DNA of 64,000 nt, from the NCBI GenBank assembly GCA_010015675.1, contig ML976993.1, positions 869,063-933,062 on the forward strand, written 5' to 3'. The first letter of the stretch is position 1; every line of letters begins with the position of its first letter. Shown here one piece after another: positions 17,831 through 53,589 of the stretch. Below the pieces are notes generated by a model. The model saw only the letters and a list, made by a program, of their open reading frames with translations. It was not told the origin of the DNA and searched no databases. Source of the DNA: Byssothecium circinans. Taxonomy: Eukaryota > Ascomycota > Dothideomycetes > Pleosporales > Massarinaceae. The translations under genes were made by a program, and so were the position numbers.

Positions 17831-19145
17831 ATGTTCCGCTGGGCCCAGCAGCAGTCAGTCTTCCGCCACTCCCGCCACGCGGCCGTCGGCATCCGCAAGT
17901 AGTGAATGGCGAAGACGCGGACTGACATGCACCAGGTTGGCCAACGTCGCCGGTACGCAGGAGCCCGAGTACGGACCGGAGGCCATTCACCCAGTGGGGA
18001 AGAATGAGGGCGACCCCGCCTTTTCCGAGCTGACCAAGGCCGACCTCAGGTGGAAGACGCTGGATGTGACGAATGCGGAGACGCAGACCTTTTACATCAA
18101 CGCCGACAGTGGCCACACGTGCTTTCTGCAGGTCATTTATAGCAATGTAGCGTAAGAGGTCCCGTCTTCTTGTACTATGAAGTGCTCATTCAAACAGTGG
18201 TCTGCGCATCACCGTCCAGTTCAACTGCAAAGTCTTCTCCCCCGGCAACGAAAAGCCCATTGTCTGGTCCAGCGATCCCCTTGCCAACTATGGCTTCGAC
18301 GAGGAGCAACACTCGTTTTACGCAGACGGCGTCTCGGTCGAGCTCTCCGAGGACGGCACCTTCTACACGATCAAGTCGGCAATCAACGAGAACAGCATGG
18401 TGGACGTCAAGATATCGCGGGCGGCCCCAGGCTTCATGGGCGGCAAGGACGGGACAACCTACTATGGAACCGACCCCAAGGCTCCGTGGGGAACGATGCG
18501 GCATGCGTTCTGGCCAAGGGCCAATGTCGAGGGCAGAATCATCACAAAAGAGGGCGAGCTCAACATGAAGGGCAGGGGCATGTTTAGCCATGCGCTGCAG
18601 GGCATGAAGCCTCATCATGCTGGCAAGTCTTTATCCCAAGTAATGGTCTTCTTGACTAATCTTTTGCAGCCGCGAGATGGAATTTTGTCAACTTTCAGTC
18701 ACCAACCTACTCGGCCATCTTGATGGAGTTCACTACCCCTTCATCGTATGGCTCCACTGTCGTTAGGGTCTCGGGAATCGCGACGGACGGTAAACTCTTG
18801 TTTGCCAACACCGACTCCGGCCATGTGAAGCACCTCGAGAGCAAACAAGACGCCGACAATGAATGGCTGGCCCCGACCGCCGCAAGCTACGCCTGGGAGG
18901 GCAAGAGCGAGGACGGCAAACCAGTCTCTGCGCTTCTCGAAGGCAGCCTCGGTTCGCTTTGGGACCGTGTAGATGTCATGGCCGAGGTGCCAGCATTTGT
19001 CAAGTCCATTGTTGCAAATGCGGCCGGCACGAAGCCCTATATTTACCAATACCGGCCCAAGCTGGAGCTGGAGATCAAGGTGGGCGAGGAGACTAAAAAG
19101 GAAGAGGGAACGGCGTTTATTGAGGCGACCTTTGTCGTCTCATAG
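17831..19145 (+). CDS. svf1: Svf1 family survival/oxidative-stress protein
   Basis: Four exons (17831-17853, 17936-18151, 18198-18622, 18670-19145) give 379 residues, the normal Svf1 length. Svf1 is a lipocalin-like protein that in yeast supports survival of oxidative and cold stress and has been linked to sphingolipid/ceramide handling. Family features are the N-terminal amphipathic [68 protein letters not shown] and a C-terminal [13 protein letters not shown]. The first exon is only 23 nt with donor GTCAGT. Intron 3 (18623-18669) uses a GC donor (gcaagt) with an AG acceptor. No GT donor nearby keeps HHAAARWNF intact. Confidence 0.9.
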
Positions 19146-19496
19146 GGAGAGGAATAAGGGAAAGGAATAAGGGAAAGGAACAAGTTGGATAGACCTACGA
19201 CTATTACGCCCACCTAGCTTTAATGAACTAACTCGGGACTGGCGCTTGAGAACCTAATGACGCGATATCTTTCTTCCCTCATGGAGTGTATTATTTCATC
19301 GTGCCTCTTTGTGTAAAATTAGAGGTTGGATACGGTCAAGTGTTCAAGGTCTCGATACGCGATCCGCCATCCTAGATGTCTTGGAGCTGAAAGTGTCCCT
19401 TGGATATATCTGTAATATTGATCATCTCCTTCACCGCTCCTTCTCTTTCCGTCCCGCACCCTCTTGCTCTCGTAGAAATATGCCTCTTGCGGTAGC

Positions 19497-19595
19497 GCGA
19501 AAGTGGGTATAAGCGCACGAACCATCTCACCCAAACCTCACCAAAAAGACCTCACTTTTGGTGAGATGGTCCGTGCGCTTACTTCTCACTTTCGC
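19497..19595. repeat. 99-bp long inverted repeat (hairpin)
   Basis: The left arm (19497-19531, starting gcgaaagtgggtataagcgc) is matched by the reverse complement of the right arm (19560-19595, ending tactcactttcgc-like sequence) with only a few mismatches. Inside it, ctcaccaaaa and ttttggtgag form a second nested pair. It sits immediately left of element copy B. Confidence 0.7.
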
Positions 19596-19600
19596 ATGCT

Positions 19601-19739
19601 CTCGGGAAATAATCTGTTAGCACTCGCGTCACCGTCAAAGCCCAAAAACTCTAATAAGTATCAGGTACTCAATCCCCTTGGCATAGTTTGCAGAGTATGG
19701 TTGTTGGCCTATTTTCTGTGACTTTGCTATCGCGAGAGC
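19601..19739 (+). repeat. short inverted-repeat element, copy B
   Basis: About 139 bp, opening ctcgggaaataatctgtta and closing gactttgctatcgcgagag. Both ends match copies A (648-787) and C (20308-20443); the middle has diverged. It lies directly upstream of the H4-variant gene. Confidence 0.6.
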
Positions 19740-19926: not shown

Positions 19927-20826
19927 ATGGTCAACGAGCGCCCCCACGCGTTCAGAGGCGTTGCGCGCTTTCCGGGGAGCCAGCGCCCGAATCACACGTC
20001 TTCTGGAACAGTGTCTGGAAGCCCTCATGGCTCTCGGGCCACAATACTTGGGCTTGGGCTTGGAAAAGGCGGGTATGTATTGTAATAAGCTGACGACTTC
20101 ACGTGCAAGTGCTGACGTTTGTCCCAGCAAGGGCCTCGGGAAAGGCGGGGCTCTCAAGCGTCACAAAAAGGTGCAGCGAGACACTATTCAAGGTGTCACG
20201 AAAGGTGATATTCGGTACGTCCTGTTGTTTCATCGTCAAGGTCGACTTTGGCTTGTGTCGACTACCAACCTGTGCTGCCCGCAGGCTGTCTCTCGCGCGA
20301 AGAGAATCTCGGGAATAAGCTACTGCAACTTGCGTTCCTAGCAAAGTCCAGCAACTCGGGGGTACAACGGACTAAATTACCCGTGGATGAGTTTTGCGGA
20401 GTATGGTTGTCGGCTTGTTTCTCGAGATGTTGCTACCGCGAGGGACAGCTTGCTGCTGCCCCTCAAATATCAGTCTTGATTGTTTACTGATCCCGCTACC
20501 AGCCGACTTGCTCGCCGTGGCGGTATCAAGCGTATCTCAGCACCGATTTATGACGATGTGCGGATGGTGCTCAAGTCACGGCTAGAACTGGGAAGTATTG
20601 GCAACCGCTCAATAATGAGAGTACCTATTAACAAGAACAGCTCCTCCGGGATATCATTGCTCTGGTTGAGCACTCAGGCAGAAAGACTGTGGCGGTGACA
20701 GACGTCATATTCACTCTGAATAGGGTATGTTATACTCGCTGCTGGTTAGGAACAGTCCGCTAACTCTTACAGCTCGGTCGCCCTCTCTACGGGTTCAACC
20801 CTTCCTTTGACGGCCGCCACCGTTGA
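19927..20826 (+). CDS. histone H4 variant, N-terminally extended
   Basis: Five exons (19927-20072, 20128-20214, 20503-20594, 20636-20724, 20773-20826) join in frame without stops to 155 residues; canonical H4 has about 103. The ATG sits in a strong context (caccATGG). Residues 1-45 are a novel extension. Residues 46-64 match the H4 tail (GKGGKGLGKGG, then ALKRHKKV, with an extra Leu before the K16 equivalent). The core keeps [34 protein letters not shown], then about three extra residues, [26 protein letters not shown] and RPLYGF, with seven or so extra residues at the end. Histone H4 pairs with H3 in nucleosomes. H4 variants are known in some filamentous fungi, with unclear roles. Intron 3 is only 41 nt. 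If it is not spliced, the frame ends at 20698 and the C-terminal helix is lost, so a damaged gene is the alternative. Intron 2 holds element copy C. Confidence 0.75.
20308..20443 (+). repeat. short inverted-repeat element, copy C (inside H4-variant intron 2)
   Basis: About 136 bp with the same ends as copies A and B: it opens ctcgggaataagctactg and closes gatgttgctaccgcgag. The right half (gatgagttttgcggagtatg onward) is the best conserved part across the three copies. It makes up nearly half of the 288-nt second intron of the H4-variant gene. Confidence 0.6.
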
Positions 20827-34361: not shown

Positions 34362-37300
34362 ATGCCCTGGGCTCCATCGTACGAAGTCCAGGAAGAGGAC
34401 GACGACCTGGACATGTCCGACGCCGAGTCGGGGGAGCAGCCAGAGAGCAAAGAAGAGGAAGAAGAAAAGTATGCCGCATACGGTGACGACGAGGAAGACG
34501 AGCCATCCGAGCCAGTGCGCGAACAAGACGGCGACGATGACCTTGACGACATTGACGGTTCCCACGCCCCCAAAACGAGTGCCGAGAAGCGGAGAGCTCA
34601 AAACGAAATCTTTCGGGAATTCGCCGCAGTCCGAGCAGCGCAAATAACCGAAAAGGAAATCAAAGAATCCCTCAAGGACGTGCGCGATGAAGTCCTTTCG
34701 ATTCAAGATATTCTGGCCAAGCAAGAGAATAGCTCCAGAATCACCAACCCTCGCGACTATCAGACCGAGCTCTTCCAGCGGGCCAAAGACGAAAACATCA
34801 TTGCCGTCTTGGGTACTGGCTCAGGCAAGACGCACATTGCAACACTACTCCTCCGCGAGATTCTCGATCGTGAGGTTGAGGCGCGTGCTCAAGGTGTCCC
34901 TCGCAAGGTCGCCTTTTTCCTCGTAAGCAAGTCTCCATCCAGAAAGAGTTTATATTCTGACAATGCAGGTCAATTCAATCAACCTAGTCTTCCAGCAGTC
35001 CAATGTCTTGCGTTGCGGTCTCGACCACCCAGTCGAAGGCATATGCGGTGCTATGGGCGCTGGCTTGTGGCAGAGGGATACGTGGGAAAAGTACCTAACC
35101 AAAAACATGGTCATTGTGTGTACCGCAGAAGTCTTGTGGCAGTGCCTGATGCACTCCTTCATCGGCATGTCTGGAATCAGCTTGCTCATCTTCGACGAGG
35201 CTCATCACACAAAAGACAACCATCCCTACGCTCGCATCATGAAAGACTACTACATTGCCGAGCCAAATGTAGTCAAGCGCCCCCGCATCTTTGGCATGAC
35301 CGCTTCTCCCGTCGACGCCAACATCAACGTCACTGATGCCACCAAGGTCCTCGAAAAGATTCTCCACTGCAAGATTGTAACCGTGTCCGATGACACGCTC
35401 ATTGCCAACAAAATCAACAAGCCAACCGAGCACGTCGTACAATATGATGTATTGCCTGAAGGATACGAGGCTCCTCTCTATCAGCAGCTCAAGTCTCGAT
35501 ATGGCGACTTGCCCGGATTTGACAAGCTCTTTAGGACCGCCAAAATCTTCAGCTCGGAACTTGGCCGGTGGGCATCCGACAAGTATTGGTCGTTTGCCTT
35601 TAGTGAGCAAGAGAGCCGAAAGCGTGAAATCAAACACGAGTTTAGGTTCCACAAGACGCTGAAGCGTGGTAAGCTGGACCAATTGAACGAACAGATCGCT
35701 CGGCTCAAGGAAGCCGCACAACTTGTTCAACAATACGACTTTGGTGTACCGTCTCCAACCCCAGAAGACTTGAGCAGCAAGGTATTGGTTCTCTACGAAT
35801 GGCTTGCAGAGTACTACCGCCGCCAAGGGAAGCACCGGTGCATAGTCTTTGTAGAGCAGCGACAGACGGCACGTTTGCTCAACCTCATCTTTTCCCACCT
35901 CGGCGGACCGCACCTCCATTGCGACATCCTTGTTGGTGTCAGCTCCAGCAGCGGCGACTTCAACATTTCACTTCGTTCGCAGGTCCTCACCGTCGCCAAG
36001 TTTCGCAAAGGAGAGCTCAACTGCCTATTTGCGACATCGGTAGCCGAAGAAGGTCTCGACATTCCTCAGTGCAATCTAGTCGTCCGATTCGACCTTTACC
36101 GTACAATGATTGGCTACGTTCAGTCACGAGGCCGAGCACGACACCAATATTCAAGGTACCTTCACATGGTGGAACGAGGCAATGAACAGCACAAGGGAGC
36201 AGTCTGGAATGCCAAAAGCGCCGAAGCGGCCATGAAGGCCTACTGCGAGGGCCTATCCAAGGACCAATTGCTCAACAGGATTGACTTGGAGTTACAAGCA
36301 GAAGACTTGTTTGAGAGTGACCTGGGCTTTCCCACCTACACCGATCCCGAATCCGGCGCCAAGCTCACATACAAGTCGAGCTTGCCCGTGCTAGGCCATT
36401 TTGTTTCCTGTCTGCCCGCTCCCAGCTTGGAGGTGACTTTGCAGCCAACCTATATCATCAGTCATGTGAGTTCAGCTGATGATTTGGACTACAACTCTCA
36501 GGGCGCCTTCCAATGCGAGGTCATACTTCCCGAGTGCTCTCCAATCACCTCAATGGTGGGCAAACCGTGTCGGAGAAAGGCTTTTGCCAAATGTGCCGCT
36601 GCGTTTCAACTCTGTCTCGAGTTACGAAAAAAAGGCTTCTTGGATGCAAACCTGCTTCCCACGTACAAGAAGCAATTGCCGGCAATGAGGAATGCTCTAC
36701 TTGCCATTTCCGAGAAGAAAAAAGATCAATATCCAATGCGACTCAAGCCAGACTTTTGGCAAATCAACTACGACTGCATCCCGGATCGTCTCTACCTGAC
36801 CGTTTTCGACATGGAATCGGGTCTCGACCGCCCACACCAGCCGCTAGGGCTCTTGACACGCGCCCCGATTCCGCAACTGCCCAAGTTTCCCGTCTATCTC
36901 AACAATGACCGAGCGTCCAATGTGGTCTCGTTGCCACTCACGACTCCACTGAAGACGACTAGTGAAAATCTCGAGCAGTTTACGACACTCTTTCAGATTC
37001 TCTACGAGGACATTTTCAACAAAGTATACGAGCACAATGTCCCCAGGGTCCCCTACTGGCAGGTCCCGATTCGCCTCGACCTAGCCGGCTCCATTACATC
37101 TTCGTCGATTCCAGAAGATGTCATTGACATGGACCAGGTGCAACAAGTCTGCACCCAGCGCGAGTGCAGGTGGACGCCTTCAACCACGCCCGACGAGCTA
37201 ACCGACATGTACTTTGTCGACCGGGGTGACGGTGGACGGCGCTTTTATTCCATCAGCGTGGAGCCGCATCTCAGGGCGCTTGATCCCGTACCGCAAGATG

Positions 37301-39216
37301 CACCCTCGTATAAATACTGCAAGAACATTCTCGACTACTCCGTCAGCCTCTGGAAGACGGCTCGTGAGCGGGCTGTTTGGGATACATCTCAACCAGTCGT
37401 CAGGGTGGAAAAGATTCCGTTTCGCCGCAACCATCTTGCTGCCGTTGAGAGCAAGGAGGCGTCGGATATCCGTGGCCACAATATTGCATACGTGTGCCCT
37501 GAACCCTTTAGGATCTCTGCCGTATGTATCCACCCATTTTGATGGAGTCTGCTAATTGATGAAAGGTTTCTACGCGCTTCATTGCCATGTGCTACGTCTT
37601 TCCAGCCATTATCCACCGCGTCGAAGACTATCTCATCGGTCTTGAGGCGGCTCATATGCTTGGCCTGAACATCGGACCTGCCCTCTGCCTGGAAGCACTG
37701 ACAAAAGACTCTGAAAACTCAGACGAGCACGGCGAGGAAAAGATCAACTTCAAGAGCGGCATGGGCTCCAACTATGAGCGTCTTGAATTCATGGGCGACT
37801 GCTTCTTGAAAATGGCAACATCCATTTCGACCTTTGTCCTGCAGCCTGACGAAAACGAATTCGAGTTTCATGTGCGCCGCATGGTGATGCTTTGCAACAA
37901 GAATCTATTCAATACTGCCATGGACCTCAAGTTGGTAGAGTTTGTCCGAACACAGGCCTTTTCTCGGTATGTGAGCCTCCCTAGTGATATCCCCAACTAA
38001 CAATAACAGTCGCACGTGGTATCCCAAGGGCCTCAAGATGCTTAGCGGCAAAGGCCACAAGGCTGCGGGCAACGAAGTGCTCAAGCACTCCCTAGGCGAC
38101 AAATCCGTTGCCGATGTCTGCGAAGCCTTTATCGGTGCCGCCTTCATGGAGCACAACAAGCCAGGCCAGTGGAGCCCCGAAATGTGGGACCAAGCCGTGA
38201 AGGCCGTCAAAGTGCTGGTACAGAGTAAAGATCACCTCATGGAAAAGTTTTCCGACTACTACGCCGCATATGAGAAGCCAAAGTACCAGGTCGCCGAAGC
38301 CACTGCCACACAGCTCGACCTCGCCGCCAAGGTGGAGAAGCAGCACCCATATCACTTCAAATACCCCCGACTCGTACGCTCAGCCTTTATCCATCCATCT
38401 CAGGCCTTCATGTGGGAGCACATTCCCAACTATCAGCGTCTCGAATTCTTAGGCGATGCGCTCCTCGACCAAGCATTCATCATGTACCTCTTCTACCGCT
38501 ACCCGGAAAAGGATCCCCAATGGATGACAGAGCACAAGATGCCCATGGTCTGCAACAAATTCCTCGGCACCGTCTGTGTCGAGCTCGGCTTCTACCACCA
38601 CATTCGCCAAAACAACGCCATGCTGAGCAGCCAAATCTACGACTGGGTCAATGAAATCGAGGAAGCCAAAGAAGCGTCCCAAGGCGCAGTCGACTACTGG
38701 ACCAACGTCTCCGAGCCGCCCAAGTGTCTTGCCGATGTCGTAGAAGCCTACGTCGCCGCAATGTTTGTCGACTCTGAATTCAACTTCCAGGTCGTGCAAG
38801 ACTTCTTCGACATGCATCTCAAGCAATTCTTCCTCGACATGTCCCTTTACGACGACTTCGCCAACCATCATCCCGTCACGCGCCTGCGCAACCTCTTGAA
38901 GATCAACTTTGATTGCAGGGATTGGCGCATGGCAGTCCACACCACCAAGTCCATCCTTCCCGGAAAGGATCAAGTCGTCGCCATGATCATGATTCACAAC
39001 AAGGTGCGCTTCCATGGCTTCGCTGTGAGTGAGAGGTATGCGAGGGGCAAGGCGGCTCACCAAGCCTTGGAGCGCTTGGACGGCCTCCCCGAATTCCAGT
39101 ACCGCAGAGACTACGGCTGTGATTGTGAAGAATCGGTTGATGCGGACAAGAAGAGCAAAGAGGTAGCCAAGGCGGCCGAGATGGAGTTGGCGGAGAAGCT
39201 CGAGGTGAAGAATTAG
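34362..39216 (+). CDS. dcl1: Dicer-like protein (RNase III family)
   Basis: Cuts double-stranded RNA into small RNAs for silencing. Four exons (34362-34922, 34969-37521, 37566-37966, 38010-39216) give 1573 residues, full Dicer length. In order: an acidic N-terminus; a DExH helicase with [22 protein letters not shown] and the motif VI QSRGRAR; a Dicer dimerisation (DUF283) region; a PAZ-like stretch (about 950-1050); RNase IIIa with [14 protein letters not shown]; RNase IIIb with [14 protein letters not shown] and [13 protein letters not shown]; and a C-terminal dsRNA-binding domain. Acidic residues of both nuclease sites (E..D and D..E) are present, so it should be active. The acidic start resembles the DCL1 rather than DCL2 type; that choice is moderately sure. 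No Argonaute is nearby. Confidence 0.9.
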
Positions 39217-53479: not shown

Positions 53480-53589
53480 GACAAGATGGCCGAGCGGTCT
53501 AAGGCGTGTGACTCAAGCGACAGCTTGCCTGATTTGTTAGGGCATTCACATGGGCGTTGCCCTCGTGGGTTCGAATCCCACTCTTGTCA
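53480..53589 (+). tRNA. tRNA-Leu (CAA), intron-containing
   Basis: The acceptor stem GACAAGA (53480-53486) pairs with TCTTGTC (53582-53588), with A as discriminator. The D-arm is GCCGAGCGGTCTAAGGC (A box) and the T-arm TGGGTTCGAATCCCA (B box). The anticodon loop CTCAAG gives CAA for leucine. About 27 nt after position 37 form an intron, after which TCACA closes the anticodon stem (TGTGA). A long variable arm (TGGGCGTTGCCCTCG) marks a class II tRNA. Followed by a T run (53598-53606) as polymerase III terminator. Confidence 0.92.

Follow-up and report, generated by a model that had tools for sequence, protein, structure and literature searches.

The window (the whole stretch of 64,000 nucleotides that was analysed) carries on its forward strand a gene for an H4-like histone, whose coding sequence runs from an ATG at 19927 to a stop codon at 20824–20826 and is divided into five exons. 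The parts of the gene and its two neighbours are:

17937..19145 (outer limit approximate), + strand: Svf1 orthologue, the upstream neighbour (PF08622, PF17187)
19927..20072, + strand: exon 1, N-terminal extension and beginning of the H4-like tail
20073..20127, + strand: intron 1, 55 nt, phase 2, GTATGT..CAG
20128..20214, + strand: exon 2, 87 nt, KGLGKGG..GDIR
20215..20502, + strand: intron 2, 288 nt, phase 2, equivalent to the published i3, GTACGT..CAG, contains a MITE-like repeat
20290..20444, unstranded: core of the MITE-like repeat in intron 2 (20285–20451), with boundaries taken from other copies
20503..20590, + strand: exon 3, 88 nt, matching the published H4E exon 4 in length and intron phases
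20591..20640, + strand: intron 3, at the published i4 position, 50 nt, phase 0, GGAAGT..CAG, branch motif TTAAC
20595..20635, + strand: intron 3 as placed by the sequence-only reading of this DNA, 41 nt, GTATTG..AAG, with its branch A 4 nt from the end and GKQ as extra residues in the protein
20641..20724, + strand: exon 4, 84 nt
20725..20772, + strand: intron 4 (the last), 48 nt, phase 0, GTATGT..CAG
20773..20826, + strand: exon 5, H4E-type C-terminus and stop codon
21630..23825, + strand: PhoD-related phosphatase, 731 aa, the downstream neighbour

The reading frames and exon translations bear out the five exons of the sequence-only reading and the lack of a single frame spanning the gene. 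Of the four frame-preserving joins that it proposed, three hold: introns 1, 2, and 4 are GT-AG introns with a CTRAY branch motif 9–12 nt before the intron end, and their joins match the orthologue proteins in the alignment. The join between exons 3 and 4 also keeps the frame, but it conceals a missing conserved donor. Among the orthologue rows that include an N-terminus, 13 of 14 start at the same methionine as the one encoded at 19927; the 14th (P0134) has this methionine inside a longer gene model. Both ends of the protein are extended relative to canonical H4, as had been stated, but the sizes differ from the 45 and about 8 residues given: the N-terminal extension has approximately 40–43 residues, with 5 arginines and no lysine in residues 1–43, and the C-terminus is longer by approximately 7. 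A shorter version of intron 2, spliced to an earlier CAG acceptor at 20284 (70 nt into the intron and just before the repeat), was rejected: it would end translation at codon 89, and we identified no branch motif for it.

The length of intron 2 is accounted for by the MITE-like repeat within it. This repeat has 40 scored matches across the genome, including itself, among 49 candidates. Imperfect terminal inverted repeats lie just outside the core, and their 13-nt ends pair at 12 of 13 positions (by eye). A related copy is found upstream of the gene (approximately 19596–19738), where a hairpin-like element of about 116 nt (19480–19595) either adjoins it or breaks into it; this element has a few copies, at 81%–83%, on contigs C13, C7, and C4. 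Elsewhere in the window, the open frames at 34362–39216 resemble, on visual inspection of their translations, a Dicer-like gene with a helicase followed by an RNase III-like part. A tRNA gene lies at 53480–53589 (+ strand), and nothing else in the window reaches the Rfam gathering score.

The protein has a clear H4 core, as had been reported: residues 44–147 of the query match solved H4 chains with a best E-value of 8.8e-33. The Pfam search of the window protein gave no family that reaches its cut-off, and a relation to CENP-T was discarded because the match to PF15511 is weak (19.8 bits for a cut-off of 28.1). A first protein search was dominated by canonical H4, with the orthologues P0001, P0003, and P0115 among the best 120 of 6,059 matches. 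The C-terminal stretch was a more selective query, H4E accounting for 4 of 5 candidates in one search and 13 of 14 in another. The sequence-only reading had proposed a search for orthologues in other Pleosporales, and among the matches listed we aligned 17 distinct H4E proteins from this order with the window protein, at 61%–82% identity. We then inferred a tree from 14 of the 17 orthologues, the window protein, and one canonical H4; P0126, P0127, and P0131 are partial or gapped and were left out of the tree and of the count of invariant positions. The window protein groups with those of Trematosphaeria, Lentithecium, and Massarina with a support of 87/87, which is below the level that the tool marks with a star, and this placement is consistent with Pleosporales. 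In describing a diverged H4 variant, rich in introns and with a long tail at its N-terminus, from a Pleosporales-type fungus, the initial account was right.

These results place the gene in a family that has been described before. The H4v protein (hH4v) of Neurospora crassa is reportedly the subject of Hays et al. 2002, and it is mentioned in PMC6703697. Excerpts of a study of the 'enigmatic' histone H4 variant H4E, encoded by hheA in Aspergillus nidulans, name the N. crassa H4v as its orthologue, report H4E throughout Pezizomycotina, and describe its tails as longer and diverged and its introns as patterned differently from those of canonical H4 (PMC10878826). They give a gene model with seven introns, in which an 88-nt exon 4 stands between a phase-2 i3 and a phase-0 i4, and they list svf1 and nudA as neighbours of hheA (PMC10878826). 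The window gene has the longer diverged tails, in common with its Pleosporales orthologues, and the 88-nt exon between introns of the same phases (20503–20590). The full set of seven introns is absent, with four introns here; it is no requirement for membership in the family because the same excerpts report that introns have been both gained and lost, including specific gains in Dothideomycetes (PMC10878826). A nudA-type dynein heavy chain (match at C17:64862–65881, with an open frame of 4,251 aa) is on the same contig as the H4E gene but about 0.82 Mb away, so that the svf1-hheA-nudA order of the published account is kept on the svf1 side only. The protein is the known H4E of filamentous ascomycetes and not a new one, and the locus is almost certainly the single H4E (hheA/H4v) gene of Byssothecium circinans, orthologous to those of other species. 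The initial description of a remarkable copy of H4 was overstated, since long tails and many introns are already in the published account of H4E (PMC10878826, in excerpts).

Two other origins were considered. The gene is not a copy of canonical H4: two ordinary H4 loci exist in the genome, on C63 (beside a divergent H3) and on C12 (the H3 gene and the C12 locus were read by eye), and the near-identity over 102–103 residues expected of such a copy was not found. With 62 identities over 102 aligned residues, the protein has diverged from the canonical H4 encoded elsewhere in this genome, which could instead point to a new, unrelated variant that arose within the lineage, but this reading has almost no chance of being correct given the 17 orthologues and the start, tails, exon length, and neighbour shared with them. 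The orthologues likewise rule out a new H4 family.

The anomaly of the gene lies at the intron that separates exon 3 from exon 4. With its limits set by the conserved boundary (20591–20640), this intron begins with GGAAGT instead of GT. The other nine introns that we delimited in the H4, H3, and H4E genes of this genome (two each in the H4 genes on C63 and C12 and in the H3 gene, and three in the H4E gene, some of them with limits set by eye) all begin with GTRNGT. Joining CTG to CTC across the conserved boundary (20590/20641), as orthology indicates, results in a protein of 152 aa. The length of 155 residues given by the sequence-only reading requires the 41-nt intron at 20595–20635, and the resulting protein reads RLELGKQLLRD where that of Lentithecium reads RLELLLRD. 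The GKQ insertion is present in none of the 17 orthologues, and we regard it as the product of a forced join, in which the frame is kept by a GTATTG 4 nt downstream of the conserved boundary and by an AAG acceptor whose distance from the branch A is 4 nt. It would be placed inside helix alpha-2, which in the predicted model of P0001 spans residues 90–118, with the site at 106/107. This model was built from 13 rows (mean pLDDT 60.8; 79–89 over alpha-2) and was used for the helix limits only; it matches H4 in nucleosomes with an E-value of 2.1e-7 but with a low TM-score (0.35 by query) and an rmsd of 17 Å.

We searched 20503–20724 for frame-keeping GT/GC..AG routes and found 54, of which two retain the whole fold region: the 41-nt intron and a 35-nt GC route, so that only the former has at least 40 nt. 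Joins that preserve the frame can thus by themselves create a false insertion, and gene models with short exons should be checked against the intron positions of orthologues. If the intron is retained, translation reaches a stop at codon 143, and if the GTATTG donor is joined to the conserved acceptor, the stop is at codon 118. Neither product includes alpha-3.

Apart from the donor, we found no sign that the gene is decaying. The window copy is changed at none of the 57 columns that are conserved without exception across the other 14 H4E rows, and the other 13 full rows break between 0 and 6 of their own 57–63 such columns. The end branch of the window protein is ordinary (0.14, versus 0.10 for each of its two nearest full rows). 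Within the H4E coding sequence, invariant positions and tree branch showed no decay apart from the donor. The protein was therefore under constraint until very recently, or is so to this day, and the lack of coding decay also fits a working gene. The decaying copy named at the outset as the alternative to a working variant is a live one, although the coding sequence shows no decay.

The lost GT admits several readings, in some of which H4E is still made, either with a working GG-AG intron or as a GKQ isoform; together these two have a limited but appreciable chance of being right. Removal of a rare GG-AG intron would result in a normally working gene and a 152-aa H4E. The protein then matches the orthologues throughout, the 57 invariant positions are all unchanged, and the intron keeps AAGT at positions +3 to +6, a TTAAC branch motif, and its CAG acceptor. 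Yet among 2,022 Fusarium introns the second position is T in 99% and C in 1%, according to the excerpts of that survey (PMC5677156), a survey of fungal noncanonical splice sites (PMC7072748) nowhere has the string GG-AG in its main text, and all nine of the other histone-gene introns in this genome begin with GT. We consider such an intron improbable. The 155-aa protein with GKQ in alpha-2 is more doubtful still, and we regard it as very unlikely. Its intron is the sole route of at least 40 nt, among the 54, that spares the whole fold region, and if it were used, the isoform would have an H4 fold altered within the main dimer helix. But a length of 41 nt falls below the 42–529 nt of the Fusarium introns, its GTATTG has T at the fifth position where these have G in 93% (PMC5677156, in excerpts), its branch A is 4 nt from the end instead of the 9–12 nt of the three intact introns, and the insertion, absent from all orthologues, would interrupt a predicted helix.

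The GG could also be a base error of the assembly, or an allele that is rare in the species but carried by the sequenced strain, in which case the H4E gene of the species would be a normal one. In favour of this, we see no further lesion in the gene; against it, long frames are intact elsewhere (4,251 aa for the dynein match, and 731, 1,030, and 1,263 aa in the window). The assembly is therefore not visibly rich in errors, although a single one is still compatible with these frames; we judge this reading unlikely, if worth keeping in mind. Given the orthology to H4E, the most likely case is a known variant with one splice-site lesion, that is, a very recent loss allele, and we favour it with a confidence slightly above even. 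A working H4E would pair with H3 through its H4 fold and may enter some nucleosomes, by analogy with A. nidulans (PMC10878826, in excerpts), and the protein encoded here would carry a long lysine-free extension before its tail. The conserved intron interrupting the coding sequence of alpha-2 has no GT donor in the assembly, and most transcripts would either retain it or be spliced from the GT 4 nt further on to the conserved acceptor. Because both products reach a stop before alpha-3, little or no normal H4E would be made. The lesion would be very recent, since no other damage is visible. A fresh loss is plausible because, in the excerpts of the published study, H4E is dispensable in A. nidulans, where deletion of hheA has no detectable phenotype and the function of the gene is not known, and is missing in Penicillium, Ophiostomatales, and Botryosphaeriales (PMC10878826). 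We found no mention of a GG-donor lesion in H4E in the literature that we searched on H4E/hheA and on histone H4 variants in Pleosporales. A gene that has kept its coding sequence unspoilt and lost a single donor would be a natural case of loss at an early stage, or of unusual splicing.

The comparison with known systems separates what is shared from what is particular to this locus. Nuclear localisation and interaction with H3 have been demonstrated for H4E in A. nidulans only, according to the excerpts of its description (PMC10878826). In that species, nitrogen-starved mycelium expresses hheA well. The gene studied here resembles hheA of that species in its histone fold, its longer diverged tails, its 88-nt exon with the same intron phases, the adjoining svf1, and a genome with two separate loci for canonical H4. 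It differs from hheA in that the phase-0 intron after the 88-nt exon begins with GG, nudA is not adjoining, and there are five exons instead of the published seven introns. The proteins of Trematosphaeria pertusa (P0001, 80% identity) and Lentithecium fluviatile (P0003, 82%) have the same tails as the window protein; both read RLELLL over the intron position, without the GKQ that the sequence-only reading introduces there. The canonical H4 on C63 shares the H4 histone fold and the 62 identical residues of the alignment, but it lacks the extensions, has its two introns elsewhere in the gene, and lies next to the divergent H3 gene identified by eye.
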